DNA of 64,000 bases from Algibacter mikhailovii. Lineage in GTDB: Bacteria; Bacteroidota; Bacteroidia; Flavobacteriales; Flavobacteriaceae. Both the position numbers and the translations under genes were made by a program. The stretch lies in contig NZ_BMWZ01000002.1 in assembly GCF_014651495.1 (NCBI RefSeq), forward strand, positions 372,001 to 436,000. The letters are read 5' to 3'. Shown here piece by piece: positions 24,569 to 37,490 of this stretch (within the stretch, counting starts at the first letter, position 1; each line of letters starts with the position of its first letter). The notes under the pieces were generated by a model. It ran no database searches, was not told where the DNA came from, and saw only the letters and a program-made list of their open reading frames with translations.

Positions 24569-24588
24569 TAATTAGACCTCTTAAACTA

Positions 24589-24659
24589 CAAATGTATAGA
24601 TAGAAAAGAATTTGGAGATTGGTGTAACACCTACATTTACCATATAGGCAATTTACCTA
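24589..24659 (-). promoter_or_regulatory. Two-box promoter D (degenerate receiver gene)
   Basis: Read leftward: box 1 TAGGTAAATTGCCTA (24659-24645), box 2 TAGGTGTTACACCAA (24633-24619), -7 TACATTTG (24596-24589). Box 1 to box 2 is 26 bp and box 2 to -7 is 37 bp, start to start, exactly as in the four other promoters of this set. The first three bases of box 1 are the stop codon of the response regulator gene. No -33 element is seen. Confidence 0.8.
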
Positions 24660-25316
24660 TACATCATCAAACAGCTGTCTTTCAATAGCATACAATACCA
24701 ATCCAGCTACATTCTTGCTACCAGTTTTATCTAGCAAATTTCTTTTGTGTGCATCAACGGTTCGCACACTTACAAATAACTGTTCTGCAATTTCTTTGTT
24801 AGATTGTTCTTTTAAAATTAAATGTAATACTTCTTTTTCTCTTTCCGTTAAAGGCATTTCAGTTACAACTTTCGATGTTGAAATTGGTTTTATTTTACGA
24901 ATGTTGTTCAAAATAATATTAGTGACCTCTGGAGAATAATAGGTATTTCCTTCATAAACACTTTTAATGGCTTGAATCAGTTCTTCCTCACTACAGTTTT
25001 TCAGTAAATACCCCAGTGCGCCTTCTGCCAACATCTGCTTAATATGTTGACTTTCCCCCATCATTGTCAAGGCAATTATTTTAATATTTGGATGGTCAAT
25101 CTTTAATGTCTTAATCAATTCTAAGCCATCCATAATTGGCATATTCAAATCTGTAAGTACAATATCTACAGCTATGTCTCTTAATTGATTCAAGCAATCT
25201 TCACCATTCTCTGCTTCCGCGACTATTTCAAAATCTGGATGATCTCCCAAAAAGTTTTTTAATCCTTCTCGAATCATTTTATGATCATCTACTAAAAAAA
25301 GTTTAATCTTACCCAT
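24657..25316 (-). CDS. NarL/LuxR-family response regulator paired with kinase
   Basis: A 219-residue response regulator with an intact receiver (KLFLVDDHKMIREGL; phosphoacceptor Asp in VDIVLTDLNMP; Thr in IIALTMM; Lys in YLLKN) and a C-terminal LuxR helix-turn-helix (SNKEIAEQLFVSVRTVDAHKRN). It starts five bases after the histidine kinase gene, so the two form a co-transcribed two-component system. It is the best candidate to bind the TAGGT boxes found in five promoters of the next 13 kb, one of which begins within its own stop codon; binding is inferred from position and the class of regulator. Confidence 0.95.
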   Translation of the reverse strand: MGKIKLFLVDDHKMIREGLKNFLGDHPDFEIVAEAENGEDCLNQLRDIAVDIVLTDLNMPIMDGLELIKTLKIDHPNIKIIALTMMGESQHIKQMLAEGALGYLLKNCSEEELIQAIKSVYEGNTYYSPEVTNIILNNIRKIKPISTSKVVTEMPLTEREKEVLHLILKEQSNKEIAEQLFVSVRTVDAHKRNLLDKTGSKNVAGLVLYAIERQLFDDV

Positions 25317-25321
25317 GGCTG

Positions 25322-27979
25322 TTACACACTTTTATTTATTTCCACTAAAATAGTAGTTCCACTGCCAATTCTACTGTCTATTTCTAAAAATCCGTTTATG
25401 GCGTCTACCCTATTTCTCATACTCTGAAACCCTAAACCCCTATTCTTCTCTGTTATTTTATTAATGTCAAATCCAACACCATCATCCTCTATAGTTAGCA
25501 TATATAGTTCATCATAATCCTTCAATTGAATAGATACATTTTTCGCTTTTGAGTATTTAATAATATTATTAATAGACTCCTGTAAAATACGATATAAAGT
25601 AATTTCTATTTGTTGATTTTCTAATCGTTCTTGTTCAAAGTTATGTATGAAATTAAAAGCAATCGATTCAGAACTCTTATCCAATTCATCAATCAAACTT
25701 TCAAATGCTGAAATGACACCAAAATCTATTATTGCTTTTGGCATTAGTGAATGTGCTACAACTCGACTTTCAATAATAGAATCTTGTAAATAATTCCAAC
25801 CTATTTCAAATTTTTCTTTTGCATTATCACCTAACTTATTGAGTTCTTTTTTTGCTGTTTGAAAGTTTAAAGACGAAATTGTAAGTGTTTGCTGAAGCCC
25901 ATCATGTATATCTCTTGAAATCCTACTACGTTCAATATTTTCGGTTCTTAAAACGGCTTCAAGCATTTCTTGAGTTCGTATTTTGTCGGCAGTAATATCT
26001 GTATGTGTTCCAACCACTCTAGTTGGTTTACCTTCTGAATCTCGTTCTACAATTTTACCTTTTACCTGTACCCAAATAGTGTCTCCTTTTTTCTTTTTTA
26101 TTTTATACTCATCCAACAATTGCTCGTTACTCCTTTCAGTCATTATTTTTTGATGATTTTCTCTAAGAATCTCTCGTTGATTATGATCTGAAATTCTTTT
26201 ATATATTTCTTCTCTAGATTCTTCAAATTCATAAGGGGCATAGCCTAGCATTGTATAAATTGCTGAGCTAAATTTTATTGTATCAGATTTCACATTCCAA
26301 TCCCATATACCATCATTTGATGCATCTAAGGCATATTTATAACGTTCATCACTTACTTTCAAGTTATTGTTAACTTCAACAATTTTTTGAGTACGCTCCT
26401 CAACTTTTTGTTCTAAATTTTCATTCAAATTATTAAGTTCTTGATTCTGGTCTTCAATCGTGTTTTTTTGCTTTTTAATCAATCTAATTCTACTGTAAAG
26501 TAAAACCGAAAACCCTAATACAATCAAAAGAATAATAAATAAAGTTTGACGCTCTCTTTGGGTTTTTGCCAACGTTGCTTTTTGAATTTCTCTTTGACTT
26601 TCAAAATAAATACTGTCTCTAAGTGCTTTTTTCTCGTACTCATACTTAAACTCTTGACCTATAATTGCTCGCTTATTATCTATAGCTTGTATGCTATCAT
26701 TTGTGGATACATATAACTTGTATGACTCCAATGCTAGTTTGTCATTTCCTAAAGAATCATATAATTGAAATAAATCAAAAGAGGCATCTCTAACCTCTGC
26801 AATAAACCTATTTCTTGAAGTCTCTAAGCTTTTGTTGAAATAAGCTAAAGCCTGTTTTGTATTACCTATAGCTTTATAGTATAAGCCCATTCCTCTTTGT
26901 GCCATAGCAACTCCTAGAGTATAATTTATCTCTTCAGAAATAGTTAATGATCGTGATAAGTTTTTATAAGCTTCCGGATAGTTTTTGAGGTGTATTTGAA
27001 GTTTACCTATTTCTCTTAGCGCTCGACCTATAAACGCTTTATTACCAATTTCCTCAGAAATTAAAAGGCTTCTGTTTAAATATTCAAGTGCTTTATCTTG
27101 GTCTTTGTATTTTACAGAGGCTTCACCCAAATTTGCTAAAACCTTAGCAAGACCTTCTTTATTGTTTAATTTTTCATTTAGTTCTAATGCCTTATACGTA
27201 TGCTCTAAAAATTGTTCTTTATTTTCCAGGTCGTAATGTAAACTTGCTATATTGATATGATCTGTGGCAGCATTTGCTTCATTTCCATTTCTCTCATGAA
27301 AGGCTAATTGTTTCTGGAATAATTCAATAGCCATAGATAAATCGCCTTTCCTTTTCTTTAAAAGCGCTAAATTAGTTGAAGAAGCGGTAGTATCCATTCC
27401 TAGTTCTTCGTATAAGCTAATACACTGTTCAAAACAGGCTTCTGCAGAAGGATAGTCGTTCTTATAAATATAAACAATACCAATGTTGTTTAAGTTATTT
27501 GCCACTTGTTCTTTATCGTTTAACGCTTTTGATACTTTTATTGCTTTACGATAATAAACAATGGTACTATCATACTCAAACTTTTTATTCGTAACCAACC
27601 CAAACCTGGTATATGCTAGTGCAATACTTGAACTATCTCCATTTTGTATGGCAGTATCAAAAGCTTCAGTATTTATTCTATTGGCAGTATCAAAATCTCC
27701 TTTTTTATAATATACAGACCATATTACTCGTTTAGATTTAACTTTATATTCCTCAATTCTTTTTATGTTTGCAAACTCGTAGGCTTTTTGAGCATAAAAC
27801 AGAGAACTATCGGCGTTCGTTTTATTATACTTTTTAGCATATTCAGTCAACGCTTTTGCGCGATTGAAATCTGACTGCTCTGCATCAATCCAAACATTCC
27901 GTAAGGAATCTAATTGCTGCCCGAAACAAGGTGTTATCAATAAAATAAAAATGGTGACTAATCTGATATTATGTCTCAT
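25322..27979 (-). CDS. TPR-PAS sensor histidine kinase (HisKA_3/HATPase)
   Basis: An 885-residue membrane sensor. Order: signal peptide (1-20), periplasmic tetratricopeptide repeats (about 35-430), one transmembrane helix (about 479-496), coiled coil (503-540), PAS/PAC domain (about 545-660), HisKA_3 dimerisation domain with the phosphorylated His 692 in SRDIHDGLQQTLT, and HATPase_c (about 785-885) with EDDGVGFD and GLGFQSMRNRV. HisKA_3 kinases pair with NarL/LuxR regulators, which fits the gene five bases downstream. The periplasmic repeats probably detect an envelope protein or peptide. A decayed copy of its HATPase region lies just upstream at 28085-28305. Confidence 0.94.
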   Translation of the reverse strand: MRHNIRLVTIFILLITPCFGQQLDSLRNVWIDAEQSDFNRAKALTEYAKKYNKTNADSSLFYAQKAYEFANIKRIEEYKVKSKRVIWSVYYKKGDFDTANRINTEAFDTAIQNGDSSSIALAYTRFGLVTNKKFEYDSTIVYYRKAIKVSKALNDKEQVANNLNNIGIVYIYKNDYPSAEACFEQCISLYEELGMDTTASSTNLALLKKRKGDLSMAIELFQKQLAFHERNGNEANAATDHINIASLHYDLENKEQFLEHTYKALELNEKLNNKEGLAKVLANLGEASVKYKDQDKALEYLNRSLLISEEIGNKAFIGRALREIGKLQIHLKNYPEAYKNLSRSLTISEEINYTLGVAMAQRGMGLYYKAIGNTKQALAYFNKSLETSRNRFIAEVRDASFDLFQLYDSLGNDKLALESYKLYVSTNDSIQAIDNKRAIIGQEFKYEYEKKALRDSIYFESQREIQKATLAKTQRERQTLFIILLIVLGFSVLLYSRIRLIKKQKNTIEDQNQELNNLNENLEQKVEERTQKIVEVNNNLKVSDERYKYALDASNDGIWDWNVKSDTIKFSSAIYTMLGYAPYEFEESREEIYKRISDHNQREILRENHQKIMTERSNEQLLDEYKIKKKKGDTIWVQVKGKIVERDSEGKPTRVVGTHTDITADKIRTQEMLEAVLRTENIERSRISRDIHDGLQQTLTISSLNFQTAKKELNKLGDNAKEKFEIGWNYLQDSIIESRVVAHSLMPKAIIDFGVISAFESLIDELDKSSESIAFNFIHNFEQERLENQQIEITLYRILQESINNIIKYSKAKNVSIQLKDYDELYMLTIEDDGVGFDINKITEKNRGLGFQSMRNRVDAINGFLEIDSRIGSGTTILVEINKSV

Positions 27980-28084
27980 TACTTAAAAAAAATTTTCTTA
28001 AAATTATTTTACTAATTCCAAATAGTAAACTCACTCCACCTCAATCCGCCTATCGCCTTCAAAAACCATGAACAATATTTAATC

Positions 28085-28305
28085 AGTTTTTAATACTTTT
28101 AAATGAACACTCTTTGTTTTCTTTAATCAAAATAGAACTATAACCACCATCATCTCTAGCAATTAACAGGTGTACATCATCATACTCTTTTAATTGAATA
28201 GCTATATTAGAGACTTTGGTCTTGAAGTAATATAATTAATTGTCTAATGCAAGATACGATAGAAAGTAATTTCTATATGTTGAATTATACATTTTTCAAA
28301 TTATA
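28085..28305 (-). pseudogene. Decayed fragment of a paralogous histidine kinase (HATPase region)
   Basis: Translating leftward across two frames gives QHIEITFYRIL, then KTKVSNIAIQLKEYDD and LLIARDDGG, which line up with QQIEITLYRILQ, KAKNVSIQLKDYDE and LTIEDDGVG of the intact kinase at 25322-27979. Stops and at least one frame change interrupt it, and no promoter or full kinase remains. A decayed relic of a second, related two-component kinase is the simplest reading. Ends are approximate; the similarity was judged by eye. Confidence 0.6.
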
Positions 28306-28550
28306 ACAAAACCTATTATGTGCTTACTCCGGAGAATTTTAAAAAAAAAGCGATAAGATTTTAAAATGCTGAATTCTTATCAACTTGAGGCATATATCTA
28401 AAGTGTTATCAGTTTACCTATATTTGTTTAAATGGAATGGCATAAAATGATCAAAATCTCAAAAGACGCGTTAAACTTTACCTCTAACAAAATATTATTA
28501 TAAAAAATAGCAGATATCATATCTATCATCAATCCTTTCTCAATCCGTTA
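28306..28550. other. Intergenic stretch upstream of the AraC gene
   Basis: No gene seen. AT-rich sequence with a perfect -7 element TATATTTG at 28419-28426 on the plus strand, presumably for the AraC gene. The TAGGT boxes found in other promoters of this region are absent at the expected distances (26 + 37 bp). The first 20-60 bases may still belong to the kinase relic. Confidence 0.5.
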
Positions 28551-29483
28551 TTGAGGCAGTTGCAATATGCAGATGTTCCTTTAAACAAAATTCTTTCTCG
28601 CAGTGATTTTAGAAAATTTGACTTTCTCAATCCTGATTCATATTTACCAATGTCAATGTTGTATTCTTTTTTACAAACGGTAAGAACTGATCAAGGGGTT
28701 AATCATATTGGAAATATGTTTTATAACGATTTTAAGTTGAACGAGCTTGGAGATTTCGGAGAATTCATAACAGAAAGACCTGATTTACTAACTGTTATAT
28801 CAGATGGTATAAAATATGAATCACATATTCAAACAAACACCAGAATGAATATTGAGATTTCTGGGCCAATTACTAAGTTTTCACAAGTTCATCTGGACCC
28901 ATTTTCCAAAGGAAGGCAGAATGCAGAAGACATTGCTTTTGCAATGGCCTACAAAGCGTTTAAAATGGTTTTGGGAAAAAATTGGCGCCCTATCTCACTC
29001 CATGTGCCGGGATTTTCAATCGATCCCATTACACATATTGTATCTACTAAAGACACAAATATAGTTTTTGGAGCCTCCTATTATCACTGGTTTTTTGAAA
29101 CAGCACAATTATCTCATAAAAATTTATCCATGACAGAGGCCAAAGAACTGTCATATCATGGTTTATCTAATCTATCTGGCCACATACAACTCTTGTTGAA
29201 TAGTCTAACTGAAGGCTATATACCAACAAGAAGAGATTTCTCAGGTTTTCTAAATTTGTCCGAAAGCACCATTGTTAGAACATTAAATACTGAAGGAACA
29301 ACCTATTTAAGATTGCTTCAAAAACATTTGTTTCTTAAAACTCTAGACTTGATGCATGATGAAAAACTACAAATATCTGAGATTAGCCTAAAGCTTGGAT
29401 ATGCTAACACGCCCAACTTTATTCGCGCCTTTAAAAAATGGACAAATACGACTCCAGAAAGGTATAGAAACCAAATTTTATAG
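28551..29483 (+). CDS. AraC-family transcriptional regulator
   Basis: About 310 residues: an N-terminal sensing domain of the Arabinose_bd type (SYLPMSMLYSFLQTVRTDQG) and a C-terminal AraC DNA-binding domain ending with LQISEISLKLGYANTPNFIRAFKKWTNTTPERYRNQIL. The frame opens at 28488 with no ATG before residue 35; TTG at 28551 is given as the start, but ATT or ATA codons at 28494-28502 would add sequence (SFLNPLLRQLQYADVPLNKIL) that fits the family's first helix. The start is therefore uncertain. The next genes, two outer-membrane proteins and an arylsulfatase in the same direction, are its likely targets. Confidence 0.88.
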   Translation: MRQLQYADVPLNKILSRSDFRKFDFLNPDSYLPMSMLYSFLQTVRTDQGVNHIGNMFYNDFKLNELGDFGEFITERPDLLTVISDGIKYESHIQTNTRMNIEISGPITKFSQVHLDPFSKGRQNAEDIAFAMAYKAFKMVLGKNWRPISLHVPGFSIDPITHIVSTKDTNIVFGASYYHWFFETAQLSHKNLSMTEAKELSYHGLSNLSGHIQLLLNSLTEGYIPTRRDFSGFLNLSESTIVRTLNTEGTTYLRLLQKHLFLKTLDLMHDEKLQISEISLKLGYANTPNFIRAFKKWTNTTPERYRNQIL

Positions 29484-29651
29484 GGCAGAACCAACAGGAC
29501 TGCGTATTCTCCCATTGACCCAAAATGACAATTGACAGGTCAAAATATTATTGTTTCTTTACTTTACCTCATACCAAACATAATGGATTAACCATAATCT
29601 ACTTGTCAATAATTGGTGTTAATCATTTCGTCAGCAAAGAAGCTATCACCC

Positions 29652-30836
29652 ATGACTCATAAAATTTTTCAATTATTTTCGGTGCTTTTTTTCCTTAGTA
29701 ATATGATGTATGCTCAGACAGAAAAGACAATATCAAAACAACAACGGAAAGAAGAAAAAAAAGCAAAAAAAGATTCTATTAAGGCTCAAAAAGTAGCTGA
29801 AGGCAGGTCATTGCTTTCACCATTAGTAGCCCCTGGATACACACCAGAATTAGGAGCGTTTTTGGCAGTAGGTGGCTTATGGAGTTTCAAAACTAACAGG
29901 AATGATGACAAAATTCAACGCTCATCTATGCCATTCACTTTTTCCTATACCTCTACTGGCGCTATAGTTTTTAATGCAAAACCCACAACATTTTGGCTTG
30001 CCGACAAATTGAGAATTGATGCTGATATCTGGTATAAGAATATGCCAGATAATTATTGGGGCGTAGGTGCTGAAAATGCAATTAACACACCACAAAGTGA
30101 TAGTACTACGGCATACCAGAGAGAATGGTGGTGGATGAATCCTAGAATATTGTATCAAGTTAAGAAAAACTTCTTTGTTGGATTAAATATAGATTACAAT
30201 TATACTAAAGGCTCAGATCCAAGTGCGGGCGTAGCAGCCGATCCAAACTATATAGAGTTCAATGACAGACCTCTCAATTCTGGGTTAGGTCTAATATTAA
30301 GGTACGACAGCAGAGATATTCCTGTAAATGCTTGGGAAGGTGTTTTTCTAGATTTATCGGCAACATTTTATACCACTGCTTTTGGAGGTGACAATGATTA
30401 TCAAACTTTTTTAATAGACTACAGGCAATATGAGCAAGTGGGGAAAACTGGGCAAGTCCTATCATGGCAGATTAAATCAAGAATAGCAACTGGAGATGTG
30501 CCCTATGGAGAGATGGGACAGTTAGGAAATCCGTTTGATTTACGTGGCTATAGTTGGGGGAGATTTAGAGACAAAAGTTTGTTTTTTGTACTACCTGAAT
30601 ACAGACATACATTTTACAAACAAAATGGTGACATGAGCAAACACGGGGCGGTGGTATGGGTAGCTACAGGAACTGTTTGGGATTTTGAAACAGTTGATTC
30701 GCAAAATATGCATTGGCTTCCCAATTTTGGAGTTGGATATCGATTAGAACTGCAGCCCCGTATGAATTTGAGATTAGATTTTGGAATTGGACAAGAATCT
30801 TCTGGCATTTATTTTAATTTCAATCAAGCCTTTTAA
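29652..30836 (+). CDS. BamA/TamA-type outer-membrane barrel protein
   Basis: A 394-residue exported protein starting MTHKIFQLFSVLFFLSNMMYAQ (signal peptide), followed by a Lys/Glu-rich segment and a beta-barrel that resembles the surface-antigen (Omp85 C-terminal) domain: SGLGLILRYDSRDIPVNAWEG, FDLRGYSWGRFRDKSLFFVLPEYRHTF and the closing strand SSGIYFNFNQAF. No POTRA repeats are visible, so it is a short, barrel-only member. It starts after a region without a clear activator box and is followed four bases later by another outer-membrane gene, so they form an operon. Substrate unknown. Confidence 0.8.
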   Translation: MTHKIFQLFSVLFFLSNMMYAQTEKTISKQQRKEEKKAKKDSIKAQKVAEGRSLLSPLVAPGYTPELGAFLAVGGLWSFKTNRNDDKIQRSSMPFTFSYTSTGAIVFNAKPTTFWLADKLRIDADIWYKNMPDNYWGVGAENAINTPQSDSTTAYQREWWWMNPRILYQVKKNFFVGLNIDYNYTKGSDPSAGVAADPNYIEFNDRPLNSGLGLILRYDSRDIPVNAWEGVFLDLSATFYTTAFGGDNDYQTFLIDYRQYEQVGKTGQVLSWQIKSRIATGDVPYGEMGQLGNPFDLRGYSWGRFRDKSLFFVLPEYRHTFYKQNGDMSKHGAVVWVATGTVWDFETVDSQNMHWLPNFGVGYRLELQPRMNLRLDFGIGQESSGIYFNFNQAF

Positions 30837-30839
30837 ATT

Positions 30840-31856
30840 ATGAATATTCTTATTCTGTTTGATTTTTTTAAATTATCGGCTTTAAAGTATTTGCACTTAA
30901 TTCTTTTTGTAATAGCGAATTGCTTCAATTTACTTGGTCAGGTTTCTCCTTATCAAAGTGGTGCTTATTTACCTGGAATTAGCGGCGTTAGAGACTTGAC
31001 CTACCCAGAGTTTGAGGGTCTAACCCTTATTGACTATAATTTAGGTTTATGGGCAAATAAACTCACTGATCATAATGGAGACCCTCTAAAAATCAACCAA
31101 GTCATCCCTAGTTTTGAAGATTCTGAAATAAGCGTTAAAGGCGCTGGTTACATTAATAGTTTAATGATTAGCTACACATCAAAACCTATAAAATTTCTTG
31201 GAAACGCAAGATATATGGCATGGATTAACCCGAGTTTCTTAACTGTAAATGTAAGAGTTAAAAATTTCTCAGAGGAAGATTCAAAGGTAATTGTTAAAGC
31301 TGGTGACTCAGGTTTTGGAGATCTAAATATAGCACCACTCTATTTATCCTGGCAAGGAAAAAGATTAGACTTCACTGCAGGATACCTGTTTTCTGCACCA
31401 ACAGGTCGGTATGATAGTAATATGGATGACAACATTGGTATAGGGTATTGGTCACATATATTTCAGGCCGCCGCTTATTATTATCTCGCTGAAAAATCAA
31501 CCGCATTTATGATTTCACCGGTTTATGAGATACATAGTAAAATTAGTGATACCAATGTTAAACCAGGTGCTCGATTTGCCTTGGAATATGGTATTAGTCA
31601 ATATTTTACGGAACGGCTGGAAGTCACACTTCAGGGTGGGCATGTTTGGCAAATTAGTGAAGATAAAGGTGAAGATGTGTATTGGAATCGTTCTTACAAA
31701 GATCAATTAAGTACTATAGGCATAGGAATTGGTTTTTGGGCTGTTCCAAATCGGTTTTATGGTAACCTTAAGTGGTCAAAGACTTATGCCACTAAACAAA
31801 ACTTTATCGCTAATGCATTTGAGTTGCAATTAATATTTACAGCACCATTTATATAA
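30840..31856 (+). CDS. Outer-membrane channel, SphA/MetA-pathway transporter-like
   Basis: A 338-residue exported barrel: a signal sequence ending near LLGQ, then the typical start of the phenol-MetA-degradation/SphA-like family (SPYQSGAYLPGISGVRDLTYPEFEG), central SAPTGRYDSNMDDNIGIGYW and a terminal strand ending APFI. Such proteins are thought to bring hydrophobic compounds across the outer membrane. Its ATG lies four bases after the preceding barrel gene. The arylsulfatase downstream suggests a sulfated compound as cargo, but that is only context. Confidence 0.75.
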   Translation: MNILILFDFFKLSALKYLHLILFVIANCFNLLGQVSPYQSGAYLPGISGVRDLTYPEFEGLTLIDYNLGLWANKLTDHNGDPLKINQVIPSFEDSEISVKGAGYINSLMISYTSKPIKFLGNARYMAWINPSFLTVNVRVKNFSEEDSKVIVKAGDSGFGDLNIAPLYLSWQGKRLDFTAGYLFSAPTGRYDSNMDDNIGIGYWSHIFQAAAYYYLAEKSTAFMISPVYEIHSKISDTNVKPGARFALEYGISQYFTERLEVTLQGGHVWQISEDKGEDVYWNRSYKDQLSTIGIGIGFWAVPNRFYGNLKWSKTYATKQNFIANAFELQLIFTAPFI

Positions 31857-31865
31857 ATATTCAAA

Positions 31866-31936
31866 TAGGCGAAACATCTGTTTTTTGTATTTAGGTAAAG
31901 AACTAATAACAAGAACTGCTAATAAATTCAATTTTG
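31866..31936 (+). promoter_or_regulatory. Two-box promoter E (arylsulfatase), degenerate
   Basis: Box 1 TAGGCGAAACATCTG (31866-31880), box 2 TAGGTAAAGAACTAA (31892-31906), -7 CAATTTTG (31929-31936). Spacings of 26 and 37 bp equal those of promoters A-D. The first seven bases of both boxes fit the consensus while the second halves are weaker, so it is the least certain member of the set. The arylsulfatase ATG is 41 bases downstream. Confidence 0.6.
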
Positions 31937-31976
31937 TATTAACAATAACTATTAATTTTTTAAACCAATAACAATT

Positions 31977-33488
31977 ATGAGAAAAACAAGTACAATATTC
32001 TTATTGCTATTATTATCTGTGGCAACAGGGATTTCACAAAACACAAAAAAGCCAAATATCTTGGTAATTATGGGAGACGACGTAGGCATCCCAAATTTAA
32101 GCACATATGGTCAAGGGATGATGGGTTACCAAACACCAAATATTGATCGAATAGCTCATGAGGGCTTAAAATTTACAGATTATTATGGAGAGCAAAGTTG
32201 TACAGCAGGAAGGTCTGCTTTTATAACAGGGCAACATATTATCAGAACAGGTTTGTCTAAAGTAGGCTTACCTGGAGCTCCTGTAGGAATAAAAGATGAG
32301 ACAGCTACATTGGCAGAAATGCTAAAAACCTTAGGTTATGCAACCGGTCAGTTTGGAAAAAACCATTTTGGAGATCAAGATCAATTTTTGCCTACAAAAC
32401 ATGGATTTGACGAATTTTTTGGAAATCTATATCACTTAAATGCTGAAGAGGAGCCAGAACATGCCGATTGGCCGGCAAATGATGGAAACGGAAGAGTTCC
32501 TCGCCCTAGAGGTGTTATAAAATCAAGTGCTGATGGTCCAATTGCTGATACAGGACCTTTAACTAAAAAAAGAATGGAAACAGTTGATTATGAGTTTCAA
32601 GCCGCAGCTTTTGACTTTATGGAAAGAAAAACCAAAGAAGGAACACCTTGGTTTACTTGGATGAACACAACTGGCATGCACTTCTGGACTCATATTGATG
32701 AAAAATACAAAGGAAAATCTGGATTAAACGATTACGCAGATGGTATGATAAGATTAGACGATATTGTAGGTGAGTTCCATGATAAATTAGAAGAATTAGG
32801 TGTGGATGACAATACCATTATTATTTTCACAACCGATAATGGTGTGCATCAAGCAACGTGGCCCGATGCCGGAGTTACATGGTTCCATGGCGAAAAAACC
32901 ACTAACTGGGAAGGTGGATTTAGAGTTCCTGCCATGGCCAGTTTTCCTGAAAGATATGGAATTAAGCCAGGTACATTAGTAAATGATGTTACCTCTCATT
33001 TAGACTGGGTACCTACATTATTAGCTGCTGCTGGAGGCTCAGATATTCCAAACAAACTAAAAGCCGGTACATTTACATCAAATAACAAAACATTTAAAAA
33101 CCATTTAGATGGACATAATATGTTACCGCTATGGAGTGGGAAAACAGAAAAAAACCCAAGAGAATATTTCATTTACGGGACAGATGCTGCAGAAATTTCA
33201 GCAATTCGTTTTGGAGATCGATGGAAGGCCATGTATATGGAACAAAAGGCTATTGGGCAAGAAGTTTGGATTTATAAATTAGAAAGCTTAAAAGCTCCAT
33301 TATTGTTTGATTTAAGAATGGATCCTTTTGAGAAAGCTCGAGAAACAAATACTTATCAAGATTGGTATGCAAGACACATCTTTATGTTTGGATGGGCCGC
33401 AAGTTATGTCCTGGAGTTTAAAAACAGCTTTAAAGAATTCCCTCCTGCACAAAAACCTGCAACTTGGAATGTTACGGAAATGGATTAA
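31977..33488 (+). CDS. Secreted arylsulfatase (CTAGR type)
   Basis: A 503-residue periplasmic or secreted sulfatase: signal peptide (1-20), metal-binding MGDDVGIPN, the formylglycine motif CTAGR (Cys 75), ATGQFGKNHFGD and the conserved FTTDNG segment. The Cys-X-Ala-X-Arg form, rather than Cys-X-Pro-X-Arg, is a minority variant; a maturase is needed and none is in the window. It resembles the arylsulfatase A subgroup with LYHLNAEEEPEHADWP. It has its own promoter of the TAGGT two-box kind and lies downstream of two outer-membrane genes. Natural substrate unknown. Confidence 0.92.
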   Translation: MRKTSTIFLLLLLSVATGISQNTKKPNILVIMGDDVGIPNLSTYGQGMMGYQTPNIDRIAHEGLKFTDYYGEQSCTAGRSAFITGQHIIRTGLSKVGLPGAPVGIKDETATLAEMLKTLGYATGQFGKNHFGDQDQFLPTKHGFDEFFGNLYHLNAEEEPEHADWPANDGNGRVPRPRGVIKSSADGPIADTGPLTKKRMETVDYEFQAAAFDFMERKTKEGTPWFTWMNTTGMHFWTHIDEKYKGKSGLNDYADGMIRLDDIVGEFHDKLEELGVDDNTIIIFTTDNGVHQATWPDAGVTWFHGEKTTNWEGGFRVPAMASFPERYGIKPGTLVNDVTSHLDWVPTLLAAAGGSDIPNKLKAGTFTSNNKTFKNHLDGHNMLPLWSGKTEKNPREYFIYGTDAAEISAIRFGDRWKAMYMEQKAIGQEVWIYKLESLKAPLLFDLRMDPFEKARETNTYQDWYARHIFMFGWAASYVLEFKNSFKEFPPAQKPATWNVTEMD

Positions 33489-33520
33489 TTCATAAATATC
33501 GTTATCAATATGTAAAAACA

Positions 33521-33552
33521 AAAACCTTCTAATGCTTTATTTAGAAGGTTTT
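33521..33552 (+). terminator. Terminator after the arylsulfatase
   Basis: Stem AAAACCTTCTAA with TTAGAAGGTTTT around an 8-base loop, 33 bases beyond the arylsulfatase stop codon. Confidence 0.8.
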
Positions 33553-33652
33553 GCATTACAATACTCTTGGTCTCTTAATGCCCAACTCATTTCATTTATT
33601 AAGAATGAAATTCTTTTAAACTATTAAGAAAACCTCTCTAATATTTATACGA

Positions 33653-33723
33653 TAGGTAATTCACCTAATTTATAGTATTAGGTGATTGGCTGATAGTTAC
33701 GTCTGTACTTTCATTGACCTTTG
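33653..33723 (+). promoter_or_regulatory. Two-box promoter A (csbD-hdeD operon)
   Basis: Box 1 TAGGTAATTCACCTA (33653-33667), box 2 TAGGTGATTGGCTGA (33679-33693), -7 GACCTTTG (33716-33723). Box 1 to box 2 is 26 bp and box 2 to -7 is 37 bp. The csbD ATG follows at 33777. The box 2 tail GGCTGATAG is shared with promoter B. Confidence 0.8.
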
Positions 33724-33776
33724 TATTGTTAAAAGAAACAAACAATAAAAAATATTTAATTTTTAAATCAAACATT

Positions 33777-34139
33777 ATGAACACAAATCAATTAAAAGGA
33801 AAAGTAGAACAGTTACAAGGAGATGCAAAAATCTGGTTAGGTCAAAAAACAAATAATCCAAAAATGGAAATTGAAGGCAAACTTGATATAGCAAACGGAA
33901 AATTAATAGAACAGAAAGGTAACGCCATGGAACAGTATGAAAAAGCAAAAAAAATTATGGAAAGTAGAACCGAAGAAGTTCAAAATAAAGCGCTGTTAAA
34001 ATGGGATAAATTGAAAAATGAAGATGTAAAGGAATTCGATAAGAGCTTCGAAAAATTTGCTAATAAATTAAAAGAAAAATACAATCATACTCAAGAAGAA
34101 GCAAATTCTCAAATAAGAGAATTTATGAATCAATTTTAA
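33777..34139 (+). CDS. CsbD-family stress protein
   Basis: A 120-residue hydrophilic protein. The N-terminal CsbD domain reads MNTNQLKGKVEQLQGDAKIW and continues with GKLDIANGKLIEQKGNAMEQ; the second half is a Lys/Glu-rich coiled coil that makes it longer than the 60-70 residues of typical CsbD proteins. CsbD proteins are induced by general stress in other bacteria, but their molecular role is unknown. I start at the ATG at 33777 because the in-frame TTG at 33714 lies in the -7 element. It is followed 33 bases later by an HdeD-like gene. Confidence 0.88.
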   Translation: MNTNQLKGKVEQLQGDAKIWLGQKTNNPKMEIEGKLDIANGKLIEQKGNAMEQYEKAKKIMESRTEEVQNKALLKWDKLKNEDVKEFDKSFEKFANKLKEKYNHTQEEANSQIREFMNQF

Positions 34140-34172
34140 ACTAAAAAACCAATTAATATAAAACCAATTATC

Positions 34173-34880
34173 ATGTCAAACATCATCTCACAATCAATAC
34201 ATACAATTAAACACTGGTGGTTATTTTTATTATCAGGAATATTATTAATCTTAGGTAGCGTCTATGTATTCTCAGCTCCTCAAGAAAGTTATTTATCATT
34301 AGCCTGGGTATTTAGTATTCTAGTATTCGCAAACGGTATTTCTAACGTCATTTTTTCAATTGCTAACCGCAAAGAACTTAAAGGTTGGGGTTGGTATTTA
34401 ACCGGAGGGATATTTGAAATTTTAATAGGTATAATTTTATTATCGTATCCTGCCATATCAATTATATTACTTCCCGTATTTATAGGATTCTGGTTGTTGT
34501 TTAGAGGTATAAATATTATTGGGAATGCTTTTGAACTTAAAAATATAGGGGTTTTAGATTGGGGCTGGTTCTTGCTTTTTGGAGTAACTTTAGCCGTTGT
34601 GGCATCTTCAATGATTTTACTTCCAATTATTGGTCACATTACTGTAATCATATTAACAGCTTTTGGATTATTCATCTTAGGAATAGCTAATATTATATTA
34701 TCATTTAAGTTAAAAAAAGTGAAGTCTTTAACCATTGATAAGGTGGATCAATTTAAGAATAAAATAAAATCTGAGTTCAACAATCTTAAAAAGGAGGTTA
34801 TTAATAACTATGAACAATTAAGTGAAGAAGAAAAACTAAAAATAGATCAGGCCTTTGAAAAGTACGAAGCAAATTCATAG
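34173..34880 (+). CDS. HdeD/DUF308-family membrane protein with C-terminal coiled coil
   Basis: A 235-residue inner-membrane protein with six hydrophobic helices in the HdeD (DUF308) repeat pattern (HWWLFLLSGILLILGSVYVF; FEILIGIILLSYPAISIILLP; DWGWFLLFGVTLAVVASSMILL), followed by a charged helical tail (about residues 185-235) not present in the shorter HdeD. HdeD is known from acid resistance in Escherichia coli. It is 33 bases downstream of csbD under promoter A, and a second HdeD-like gene with its own promoter B follows. Confidence 0.88.
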   Translation: MSNIISQSIHTIKHWWLFLLSGILLILGSVYVFSAPQESYLSLAWVFSILVFANGISNVIFSIANRKELKGWGWYLTGGIFEILIGIILLSYPAISIILLPVFIGFWLLFRGINIIGNAFELKNIGVLDWGWFLLFGVTLAVVASSMILLPIIGHITVIILTAFGLFILGIANIILSFKLKKVKSLTIDKVDQFKNKIKSEFNNLKKEVINNYEQLSEEEKLKIDQAFEKYEANS

Positions 34881-34904
34881 GATAATCACAAAAGATTCAA
34901 AGAT

Positions 34905-34931
34905 AAAAAGGCACCTTACTGGGTGTCTTTT
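34905..34931 (+). terminator. Terminator of csbD-hdeD
   Basis: Stem AAAAGGCACC with GGTGTCTTTT (one G-T pair) around a 6-7 base loop, 24 bases after the stop codon of the first HdeD-like gene and before promoter B. Confidence 0.7.
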
Positions 34932-35018
34932 CATTACACAGTAACACGTCTTTAATCCACCAGAAAAGGCATAGATGCAATAACCTACTTCCTTTCTACA
35001 AAGTCTAGATGTCTTGGA

Positions 35019-35089
35019 TAGGCAATTTACCTATTTTTTTCACTTAGGTGAATGGCTGATAGACAGTATAGGTTAAAATGGAATCTTTG
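35019..35089 (+). promoter_or_regulatory. Two-box promoter B (hdeD-M48 operon)
   Basis: Box 1 TAGGCAATTTACCTA (35019-35033), box 2 TAGGTGAATGGCTGA (35045-35059), -7 AATCTTTG (35082-35089). Spacings are 26 and 37 bp. The HdeD-like ATG is 45 bases downstream. Confidence 0.8.
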
Positions 35090-35133
35090 TAGTGTTAATA
35101 AAAACAAATAATCAACTTTAAAAAAATAGTATT

Positions 35134-35694
35134 ATGAACACAAGTAAAACATTATCAGCAGTCGTAGAGAAATCATTTAAAAAAATAATGATTTTAGGAA
35201 TTTTAATTGCAATCCTTGGAGTTATTGCACTTATATATCCAGAAGGATTTGGAAAAGTATCTGTAAAAACAATAGGCATATTTATGGTCATTGGAGGGCT
35301 ACTGAGATTAACATTTGCCATCACTTCATTTTCAATGGGGGCATTATTCTCTCGCTATGTTTATGGAATATTAATGATCATTGGAGGGCTTTGGGTAGTA
35401 GGAAACCCAGATATGGGACTAGAAGCACTAACCATTGTAATGGCTGTCTATTTTATAATAGATGGTTTAACACAATTAATGTACTCTTTTTCTTTGATGC
35501 CAATTGGCGGTGGACTATTCTTATTATTAAGCGGTATTGTTGGCATAGGATTAGGTGTTCTAATTTTCATGAATTTTCCTGAATCAAGTTCCTATGTATT
35601 TGGAGTCTATTTAGGAATTAAACTTTTAATAGACGGTATTACCTTAGGATTAACAGGAAGAGCAGTATATAAAACAGCACAACTTAATTCATAA
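35134..35694 (+). CDS. HdeD/DUF308-family membrane protein
   Basis: A 186-residue integral membrane protein of the HdeD (DUF308) family with six hydrophobic helices (IMILGILIAILGVIALIYPE; IFMVIGGLLRLTFAITS; YGILMIIGGLWVVGNP and so on) and short polar ends. It is shorter than the paralogue at 34173 because it lacks the coiled-coil tail. It is the first gene after promoter B and is followed 26 bases later by an M48 peptidase gene. Function in this group of bacteria is unknown. Confidence 0.88.
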   Translation: MNTSKTLSAVVEKSFKKIMILGILIAILGVIALIYPEGFGKVSVKTIGIFMVIGGLLRLTFAITSFSMGALFSRYVYGILMIIGGLWVVGNPDMGLEALTIVMAVYFIIDGLTQLMYSFSLMPIGGGLFLLLSGIVGIGLGVLIFMNFPESSSYVFGVYLGIKLLIDGITLGLTGRAVYKTAQLNS

Positions 35695-35720
35695 ATAACT
35701 CCATTATATATATAACTAAA

Positions 35721-37130
35721 ATGAAAAAGCAAGCCATCCATATTTTAACCATTCTATTTTCAATTTCGTTAGTGGCTCAGAATGTCGAGTTAGATAAATT
35801 CCTTGGAGAACAAAATGCCAAAATAGTTGTATCGGAAATGGGAATTTACAATGACCTAGATAAAACTGAATATATTCGTAAAATTGGGAATAGACTAGTA
35901 GCGGAACTAGAAAACCCCTTATTTGAGTATCAATTTCATTTAGTAGAAAACCCATCACCTAATGCCTTTGCATTACCAGGGGGTTATTTATATGTAACAA
36001 CAGGCCTTTTGCCAATATTACAAAGTGAAGATGAATTGGCATGTATTTTAGGTCATGAAATAATACATTCTAACAATCGTCATTCCATTAAACAACTAAA
36101 GAAAAGTATTTTTCCAAAATTATTAGAGGTACCAGGAAAATTAATTGGAGTTATAGATTCTGAAGTTGGCGAACTCTTTAATGCTCCAATTGAAATGTCA
36201 AATGAATTACTCCTTGCTTCGTATGGAAGAAAATCAGAGACAGAAGCTGATAAAGAAGGCATTGAATTAGCAGCAAAAGCAGGCTATAATCCTAACGCGA
36301 TGATTACCGCATTATCCAGACTTTCTAAAACGATTTCTGTCGCTACAGGAGAAGAAGAAAGTAAAAGTTATTTTAATGACCACCCATATACTCCCGATCG
36401 ATTAGAAGCAATACAAAATCAAATATCAGGTATGACATGGAAAAAAACATCACAAATTTCGTCAAACTATTTACAAAATTTTGATGGAACACTCTTCGGA
36501 GACAACCCTGAGAAGGGCATTATAAAAGACAATACATTTATACATCCAGAGTTAAATTTTCATGTTGAGTTTCCTGAAAAATGGACTATAGACAATCAAA
36601 ACTCTCATATCACGGCATATGATGAATCTCAACAATCTGGAATTTATATAGTCTTGGACAACCCAAACTTAAGCCCTAAAAAATCAGCAAGTGTATTTGT
36701 TGAAAGTTTAAAAAAGGAATACAAGGAGAAAATAATTAAACACGAACATTATCAAATTGGAAACAGAAAAGGCTACTTGGTAACTTTCCAAGATAAAGTA
36801 GAAACCCAAACTGTGTTTGCCTACGCTCTATGGATCCCGATGGAGGACAAATTATTTAGAATTATGGGTATTGCGTCAAAACAAGATCAAAATATCTTAA
36901 AGGAAATAGTTTTATCGTTAAGAAAATTATCTATAGAAGAACAAAGCCATATTACTATCAATAGAATGAGTATTGTTACTGCTAAAAAAGGAGAAACAAT
37001 TCAATCATTAAGTAAGCGAGAGCATAATTTATTAAATGAAAATTTGACCTGTGTCATTAACGACAAAAATACTAGTGACAAATTGAAAAAGGGAGAACAA
37101 ATCAAAATCATTAAAACATTCAAATATTAA
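35721..37130 (+). CDS. M48-family metalloprotease with C-terminal LysM-like domain
   Basis: A 469-residue exported zinc protease similar to BepA/YfgC. It has a signal peptide (MKKQAIHILTILFSISLVAQ), the active-site HEIIH (residues 112-116) and the third-ligand Glu in SETEADKEG, preceded by NAFALPGGYLYVTTGLL. The C-terminal half is a separate domain (FHVEFPEKWTIDN) ending in a LysM-like module (VTAKKGETIQSLSKREHN to LKKGEQIKII), which may bind cell wall. BepA-type proteases act on misassembled outer-membrane proteins, which suits an envelope-stress role for this operon. Confidence 0.9.
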   Translation: MKKQAIHILTILFSISLVAQNVELDKFLGEQNAKIVVSEMGIYNDLDKTEYIRKIGNRLVAELENPLFEYQFHLVENPSPNAFALPGGYLYVTTGLLPILQSEDELACILGHEIIHSNNRHSIKQLKKSIFPKLLEVPGKLIGVIDSEVGELFNAPIEMSNELLLASYGRKSETEADKEGIELAAKAGYNPNAMITALSRLSKTISVATGEEESKSYFNDHPYTPDRLEAIQNQISGMTWKKTSQISSNYLQNFDGTLFGDNPEKGIIKDNTFIHPELNFHVEFPEKWTIDNQNSHITAYDESQQSGIYIVLDNPNLSPKKSASVFVESLKKEYKEKIIKHEHYQIGNRKGYLVTFQDKVETQTVFAYALWIPMEDKLFRIMGIASKQDQNILKEIVLSLRKLSIEEQSHITINRMSIVTAKKGETIQSLSKREHNLLNENLTCVINDKNTSDKLKKGEQIKIIKTFKY

Positions 37131-37388
37131 CACGACGAGCTTACAAGAAATGTAAAAACAGACAATTTATATATAAGTTTAAAGCATAGAAACTTATAAA
37201 TATAATTGTTATGAATTTAGTTTCTTCGATAATAGTCTTAGGGTAGCCATGTTATGGTCATTTAAAGCGCCTTTAGTAGTTAAAAGGTATTCCATTATTG
37301 GTATTAAGGGGTTGTTATTGCCTCTGAATTAATTTACTGATTAATAAGCGTGAAAATAAATGATTAAATATATTATTATTGGATTGAT
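37131..37388. other. Intergenic stretch after the M48 gene
   Basis: No gene seen. It contains an AT-only hairpin (37172-37180 with 37190-37198) that could end the hdeD-M48 transcript weakly. The rest is unremarkable AT-rich sequence with short frames only. Confidence 0.5.
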
Positions 37389-37418
37389 AAAAAAGCACTC
37401 AATATGGGTGCTTTTTTT
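37389..37418 (+). terminator. Terminator directly before promoter C
   Basis: Perfect 10-bp stem AAAAAAGCAC with GTGCTTTTTT around a 9-base loop. It ends one base before box 1 of promoter C, so it insulates that promoter from transcription arriving from the M48 operon. Confidence 0.8.
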
Positions 37419-37419
37419 A

Positions 37420-37490
37420 TAGGTGATTTACCTAATCTATACATTTAGGTATTACCCTAATACACAGACTCTTAATCGACTATATATTTG
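37420..37490 (+). promoter_or_regulatory. Two-box promoter C (DUF1269 gene)
   Basis: Box 1 TAGGTGATTTACCTA (37420-37434), box 2 TAGGTATTACCCTAA (37446-37460), perfect -7 TATATTTG (37483-37490). Spacings are 26 and 37 bp. The ATG of the DUF1269-like gene is 49 bases downstream. Confidence 0.8.

Follow-up and report, generated by a model that had tools for sequence, protein, structure and literature searches.

A rigid two-box promoter element that accompanies a LuxR/NarL-type response regulator gene in Algibacter mikhailovii and other Bacteroidota

In the FixL–FixJ–FixT system, FixT provides negative feedback by blocking the autophosphorylation of FixL, and phosphorylation of FixT itself was not seen; a four-cysteine Fe–S motif marks the Caulobacter-type FixT and is absent from S. 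meliloti FixT (PMC7078487, in the part consulted). RcsB recognizes the half-sites TTAGGAA and TCTAAGA, with base contacts made by K180 and S184 (PMC5829831, as excerpted), and rsmX-2 is a 110-nt small-RNA gene that arose by duplication (PMC7911923, abstract). Here we describe a system that recalls each of these, found in a 64,000-nt stretch of A. mikhailovii DNA (contig NZ_BMWZ01000002.1, positions 372,001–436,000; hereafter the window): a sensor kinase gene, the adjacent gene of a LuxR/NarL-type response regulator (RR), and five copies of a 71-bp promoter element in which two boxes and a TTTG octamer keep fixed distances (Table 1). An initial annotation of the window had proposed that these promoters form one local envelope-stress regulon under the kinase/RR pair. 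The comparative evidence makes it quite probable that the five elements are activator-dependent sigma-A promoters controlled by the phosphorylated RR of the kinase/RR operon.

The RR combines a Response_reg with a GerE domain, in the domain order of NarL/FixJ RRs, and alignments show that it retains the receiver phosphorylation residues D10, D11, D56, T84, and K106. Among proteins of solved structure, those closest to it in sequence are VraR/LiaR (3.5e-35), NarL (8.6e-29), DesR (4.4e-23), and DevR (3.1e-23), along with ChrA. A similar arrangement, with paired boxes of which the nearer adjoins the promoter, is found at DevR and NarL promoters, whereas the box sequence, the rigid 26 + 37 bp layout, the Bacteroidota −7 element, and the target set distinguish the window system from VraR/LiaR, NarL, DevR, and DesR. 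As far as the excerpted RcsB description goes, the window boxes share with the RcsB/RcsAB box an inverted repeat with a TAGG core, and RcsB K180 and S184 fall on R185 and A189 of the window RR in an alignment made by eye. Unlike the enterobacterial envelope-stress system Rcs, however, the window has a TPR-PAS-HisKA_3-HATPase kinase and 15-bp boxes in pairs, with no RcsC/RcsD relay, that is, no hybrid kinase with a phosphotransfer domain. The likeness to FixL–FixJ–FixT is one of arrangement: both have a kinase, an RR of the NarL/FixJ type, and one receiver-like protein that the RR apparently controls, but the window protein has one cysteine instead of the four-cysteine motif, and the targets are others. 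We found no prior report of this element or regulon in the literature, searched mostly outside subscription journals, and to our knowledge, the operators of two-component systems are little known in Bacteroidota. New by this comparison are the rigid architecture, the pseudo-receiver, the patchy spread, and, in one relative, three tandem candidate small-RNA genes.

All five elements lie at the coordinates proposed for them, and in all five, box 2 starts 26 bp after box 1 and the octamer 37 bp after box 2; from box 1 to the start codon, the distance is 91 to 124 bp. They precede the pseudo-receiver gene, csbD-hdeD, hdeD-M48, the DUF1269 gene, and the sulfatase gene, as annotated. The octamer had been given as TAnnTTTG, a form that holds strictly in two of the five (24596–24589 and 37483–37490); the other three read GACCTTTG, AATCTTTG, and CAATTTTG. 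The sulfatase copy is indeed the weaker one (score 39.9 versus 48.3–62.9 for the other four), and box 1 of the pseudo-receiver promoter does begin in the RR stop codon, at 24659, as it also does in the relatives' loci L066, L081, and L093. Single boxes with up to 2 mismatches were not significantly enriched in the window (31 versus 25.4 expected; 12 of 100 shuffles reached 31). The two-box pattern alone (≤3 mismatches) occurred 4 times versus 0.06 expected from 100 shuffles, and the composite 71-bp pattern (≤3 mismatches) 6 times versus 0.01, the sixth match (34963–35033, minus strand, 3 mismatches) being an opposite-strand reading of box 1 at the 35019 site. A search of the entire 4.4-Mb genome for the composite (≤2 mismatches) returned exactly the five elements, the weak 31866 copy included; the reversed-pattern control returned none. 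A weight matrix built from Cytophagales and Bacteroidales sites placed the five elements within its top six window matches, the remaining one mirroring the 37420 site; this ranking is not fully independent, because the 15 sites of the final training set were chosen with an earlier matrix that had included family sites. A matrix scan of the window gave nothing above a score of 17.7 besides the five sites, and no element was found before the kinase gene. The clean signal is the composite of boxes and TTTG, not one box alone.

The annotation would have been refuted had the two-box pattern been absent in relatives that keep the regulator; this check came out in favour of the proposal, the element and the RR gene turning up together when genomes were drawn evenly. 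In the draw over the class, an RR homologue (E ≤ 1e-60) was present in 8 of 395 genomes and the composite (≤1 mismatch) in 3, all within those 8 (control, 0); excluding the source genome, the overlap has p = 2.7e-4. In G457, whose RR is 58% identical to the window RR, the RR gene is followed about 550 bp downstream by one copy, and in G728 (53%) by two, at about 80 and 620 bp. In the family draw, 3 of 397 genomes (the source genome, G252, and G109) carry an RR at least 80% identical; exact two-box matches occurred in five family genomes, namely these three, with the composite, and G217 and G362. The latter two were dismissed, as their 3-kb loci hold no composite match within 4 mismatches and their best RRs reach 36% and 42%. 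Among 24 genomes chosen by RR similarity, the 11 with a best RR of 65–100% hold 62 composite matches (3–12 each), and the 13 with a best RR of at most 61% hold 4 (0–1 each); the control gave 1. RR-bearing loci yielded 28 two-box matches in 22 loci (reversed, 0), and 33 low-identity RR loci yielded 0; when the spacer was varied from 5 to 21 in the RR loci, spacer 11 gave 28 matches and every other spacer 0–4. A csbD gene was found in 50 of 149 family genomes, 48 of which (all but the source genome and G109) lack any exact two-box match; the element is therefore no mere companion of csbD genes. Collectively, these comparisons strongly support the view that the element tracks the adjacent RR gene and not the target genes. 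The proposal of one regulon under the kinase/RR pair is thereby strongly supported as far as the association goes, and its "envelope stress" part derives from gene names only; "local" is apt for the source genome but not for relatives, in which copies occur on other contigs.

Promoter anatomy was read from a matrix of 43 sites, drawn from the 62 matches in RR-rich genomes after manual removal of 19 (near-copies in G411, G412, and to some extent G409; rows of G109, G414, G415, and G416 that were repeats or out of register), so its counts on RR-rich loci are partly by construction. Box 1 keeps both halves (consensus TAGGT-ra-t-ty-ACCTA-like), and box 2 keeps TAGG with a right half C-t-n-A. Positions 42–48, the expected place of a −33 element, are almost blank (≤0.35 bits), which bears out the annotated lack of a good one. 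Within the octamer, position 65 of the element is A in 41 of 43 sites, although the search did not require it, and position 64 is mixed (A2 C16 G9 T16). Of 31 places located through the boxes only, 26 have TTTG at the fixed offset and 2 have it shifted one base further on; 3 had no TTTG at offset 67 or 68, two of them (L066 11611 and L092 2210) being read on the mirror strand, and the orientation of near-symmetric sites in this count was set by fewest mismatches. The 10 matrix matches (reversed, 0) in 21 loci with RRs of 47–61% identity, and the 0 in 21 control loci, are free of this construction effect. The −7 element in fixed register and the lack of a −33 element fit an activated Bacteroidota sigma-A promoter. 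The flavobacterial sigma-A −7 box TAnnTTTG has been placed at −12 to −5 (PMC9723704, in the part consulted); on those coordinates, box 2 would lie at −49 to −35 (centre −42) and box 1 at −75 to −61 (centre −68), and transcripts are predicted to start at 24584 (minus strand), 31941, 33728, 35094, and 37495.

From this layout, we infer class II-like activation of a sigma-A promoter lacking a −33 element, a type of control in which an operator centred near −41.5 is needed for activation. Each box would be a 15-bp inverted repeat, ideally TAGGT-N5-ACCTA, bound by a single RR dimer. Box 1 is the more symmetric of the two and is assumed to be the strong site; box 2, whose right half is degraded, may be filled with the help of box 1. 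The dimer on box 2, centred at −42, would then contact RNA polymerase and make up for the contact that a −33 element would give, and the combination of a missing −33 element with an operator at −42 would fit such an activator. The signal would switch on the pseudo-receiver, csbD-hdeD, hdeD-M48, the DUF1269 gene, and, more weakly, the sulfatase gene, and the pseudo-receiver would probably damp the kinase or the RR, as FixT does in FixL–FixJ. A regulon of the kinase/RR pair is well supported by the association; the RR would work like known NarL-family activators, and the receiver-like protein perhaps like FixT.

Several observations weigh against this reading. The 26 bp between the boxes amount to about 2.5 helical turns, which would put two dimers on opposite faces. 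Before the receiver-like gene of relatives, box 1 is displaced to 25 bp in L066 and L081, and the five Flammeovirga loci lack it. The looser exact two-box pattern over the family does not exceed its reversed control (8 versus 10), only the composite being clean, and the reversed reading of a slightly looser palindrome gave 0 matches in RR loci and 6 in control loci. Most genomes with RRs of 47–61% identity have no two-box copies despite a nearly unchanged recognition helix. The 24 chosen genomes, five of them Flammeovirga, were picked by RR similarity and are not phylogenetically independent. Finally, most copies adjoin the RR gene, and transfer of both together accounts for some of the association.

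Taken further, this last point would make the association one of linkage only, with regulator, targets, and promoters travelling as an island and another factor using the element; the patchy distribution and an RR far closer to that of Lutimonas than the housekeeping protein DXS (94% versus 65% identical) would suit it. Yet copies lie distant from the RR gene in G109 (C8, C14, C18), G413 (C12), and G415 (C28), and on other contigs than the RR gene in G409, G410, G411, G414, and G416, where contig ends in broken assemblies may separate true neighbours. Moreover, no other regulator was seen in all annotated element-bearing RR loci, and the octamer matches the sigma-A −7 box as given in the consulted part of PMC9723704; we regard linkage alone as very unlikely. 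Chance similarity in AT-rich DNA could be argued from the single boxes, which are not above chance in the window, and from the looser family search, which equals its control, but the composite exceeds shuffles and reversed controls and is conserved before like genes in other orders, leaving chance a negligible probability.

Two rivals accept the boxes as operators and change the protein or its effect. The AraC-family regulator is encoded inside the cluster, and AraC-type genes are also found at the second RR locus of G109, which might suggest that this protein binds the boxes. The Lutimonas locus, however, keeps the RR, the kinase, the receiver-like gene, the targets, and the elements without an AraC gene, and none was recognized in Flammeovirga loci; a short symmetric repeat would also be unusual for an AraC protein. 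We rejected this candidate on the Lutimonas locus and consider it very improbable. The boxes might instead bind a repressor, perhaps the same RR, so that the signal turns the genes off: regulators of the NarL/LuxR family can activate and repress, and operator position by itself is no proof of activation. Both boxes, however, lie upstream of the −7 element of promoters that have no −33 element, and an operator centred at −42 is in the usual activator position; repression is the less unlikely of these rivals but still improbable, and activation by the RR remains our preferred reading.

Table 1. Two-box elements and genes of the kinase/RR cluster (positions in the window)
Feature	Position	Strand	Details
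Two-box promoter of pseudo-receiver gene	24589..24659	−	Box 1 24659–24645, box 2 24633–24619, −7 24596–24589; 0 mismatches
Weak two-box promoter of sulfatase gene	31866..31936	+	Box 1 31866–31880, box 2 31892–31906, −7 31929–31936; 2 mismatches, score 39.9
Two-box promoter of csbD-hdeD	33653..33723	+	Box 1 33653–33667, box 2 33679–33693, −7 33716–33723; 0 mismatches
Two-box promoter of hdeD-M48	35019..35089	+	Box 1 35019–35033, box 2 35045–35059, −7 35082–35089; 0 mismatches
Two-box promoter of DUF1269 gene	37420..37490	+	Box 1 37420–37434, box 2 37446–37460, −7 37483–37490; 0 mismatches
Pseudo-receiver, 114 aa	24224..24568	−	Predicted receiver fold; phospho-acceptor Asp, acidic pair and Lys all absent; no Pfam match; proposed feedback protein
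LuxR/NarL-type RR, 219 aa	24657..25316	−	5 bp after kinase gene; Response_reg 6.4e-29, GerE 6.2e-17; proposed box binder
Sensor histidine kinase, 885 aa	25322..27979	−	N-terminal TPRs, PAS_3, HisKA_3, HATPase_c (Pfam)
AraC-family regulator	28551–29483	+	Pfam
Omp85-domain protein and Phenol_MetA_deg protein	within 28551–31856	+	Pfam
Sulfatase, 503 aa	31977..33488	+	Pfam Sulfatase 5.8e-49
CsbD-like protein, 120 aa	33777..34139	+	CsbD 3.5e-9, 36.8 bits, below 40-bit cut-off
HdeD-like (DUF308) protein, 235 aa	34173..34880	+	DUF308 5.7e-17; presumed second gene of csbD operon
HdeD-like (DUF308) protein, 186 aa	35134..35694	+	DUF308 6e-19
M48 family metallopeptidase, 469 aa	35721..37130	+	Peptidase_M48 7e-31; presumed second gene of hdeD-M48 operon
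DUF1269 protein, 258 aa	37539..38315	+	DUF1269 1.6e-10

The 114-aa pseudo-receiver is probably, by analogy, a FixT-like feedback protein that damps the kinase or the RR. Its structure model (predicted local distance difference test score, 89.7) is a single-domain receiver fold, as in FixT-like proteins, and its top 15 PDB matches, mostly receivers or receiver-containing proteins, have probability 1.00 and modest TM (template modelling) scores of 0.64–0.75. A receiver-like gene lies directly 3′ of the RR gene for 10 of the 12 RRs of the two-box clade described below (exceptions, L095 and L096), and in alignments the ten clade proteins have the phospho-acceptor Asp replaced by Asn and have lost the acidic pair and the Lys, the L092 protein being judged from an alignment summary. 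A longer receiver-like gene follows the RR gene in G457 and G728; its product keeps an Asp at the acceptor place and has lost the Lys. In all 12 loci examined, the receiver-like gene is preceded by a box 2 that keeps its register with nAnnTTTG, and five of these loci have box 1 at 26 bp. The kinase homologue of G109 (L081 6082–7020) matches only residues 571–883 of the window kinase (PAS to ATPase) and has no TPR and membrane part. Four Flammeovirga loci (L089, L090, L092, and L134) each have at least two consecutive kinase-like genes ahead of a lone RR gene, an arrangement suggestive of several sensors converging on one regulator. Between kinase and sulfatase genes, the AraC-type, Omp85-domain, and Phenol_MetA_deg genes of the window (28551–31856) have no elements of their own; these gene types are also present at the second RR locus of G109.

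In the RR tree, the two-box-rich RRs form one clade of 12 (support 99/97), and the three Flavobacteriaceae copies sit next to Flammeovirga in a set otherwise mostly of Cytophagales. The 19 loci around RRs of 47–61% identity held 11 exact palindromes, or 10 once two overlapping stretches from a single genome are merged, and 21 control loci held none. Box variants appear in G025, where boxes TACGTGAAACACGTA and TATGTGAATCACGTA keep the same layout (L083 7215 and 13712; scores 18.6 and 19.8) and one RR (L083 9823–10476) has A189T in its recognition helix; the pairing of A189T with TACGTG/TATGTG boxes, from two sites, is only suggestive of a possible shift in binding specificity. D188E was ruled out as a determinant of box sequence, as L095 has E188 yet TAGG boxes. 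A search of the Roseivirga group for a new box by symmetry alone returned mostly noise, apart from lone TAGGT-N5-ACCTA boxes that occupy the position of box 2 ahead of Roseivirga-type kinase genes, with TTTG at or close to the expected register (L101 5314, L102 5314, and L103 7522). The second RR locus of G109 holds weaker elements (L096 1729, 7298, and 9835; scores 23.7–29.5) beside an RR 62% identical to the window RR; they precede an AraC-type gene, a sulfatase gene, and the gene of a 783-aa protein, and may represent a paralogous regulon.

The genes found first behind elements with a score of at least 18 encode CsbD (8), sulfatase (6), a 252–258-aa protein (6), receiver-like proteins (5), M48 (5), a 153–159-aa protein (3), DUF1269 (2), HdeD (2), and single others, among them the HU protein of G457 and, in G109, a MoxR-type ATPase (operon). 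The sulfatase genes of Flammeovirga carry strong copies (scores 62.6–64.6). Given that relatives' targets include sulfatases, the HU protein, the MoxR-type ATPase operon, and non-coding units, the "envelope stress" label may be too narrow, and the signal and stress role of the regulon are a guess.

The patchy distribution of RR and element over the family and class draws suggests horizontal transfer. The Lutimonas kinase is, like the RR, nearly the same as the window copy (92% identical), and the other Algibacter species compared has a DXS 85% identical but no RR above 37%. With this one housekeeping protein compared, horizontal transfer of the module is likely, not proven. A wider and rather doubtful idea, which we offer tentatively, is that of a self-contained, horizontally spreading Bacteroidota stress module, with a kinase and an RR, one rigid two-box sigma-A design, a FixT-like brake, changing stress and envelope genes, and, in some species, tandem small RNAs, in a role akin to SigB or RpoS. 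If the proposed control by the RR is right, the regulon would be compact, transferable, and defined by sequence, its members readable from the genome wherever the RR occurs, and the element itself would be compact. CsbD, HdeD, DUF1269, and M48 genes, usually called stress genes from other phyla, would be tied to a defined signalling pair, and the pseudo-receiver would add a second, seemingly independent example of a receiver-like protein positioned to restrain the two-component system it belongs to.

Lastly, L081 13900–14523 in G109 contains three tandem units of about 110–125 nt, each preceded by a two-box element and terminated by a hairpin with T's or A/T after it, which look like candidate small-RNA genes. 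They have no ATG frame over 11 codons, and two of them are 98% identical. A LuxR-type RR driving small RNAs would recall GacA/Rsm, although the GacA box differs from the window boxes. The repetition of the units is also reminiscent of the duplication of rsmX-2, as reported in the abstract of PMC7911923. Unlike Rsm RNAs, the three units contain no GGA, and they match no Rfam family near its gathering score. Used as a DNA query, one unit found the copies of its own genome and, in 12 genomes, nothing beyond short and weak matches. Reading frames of 39, 31, and 35 codons lie behind the two-box elements at L081 13671, L066 11728, and L091 4730, respectively, and may encode small proteins.

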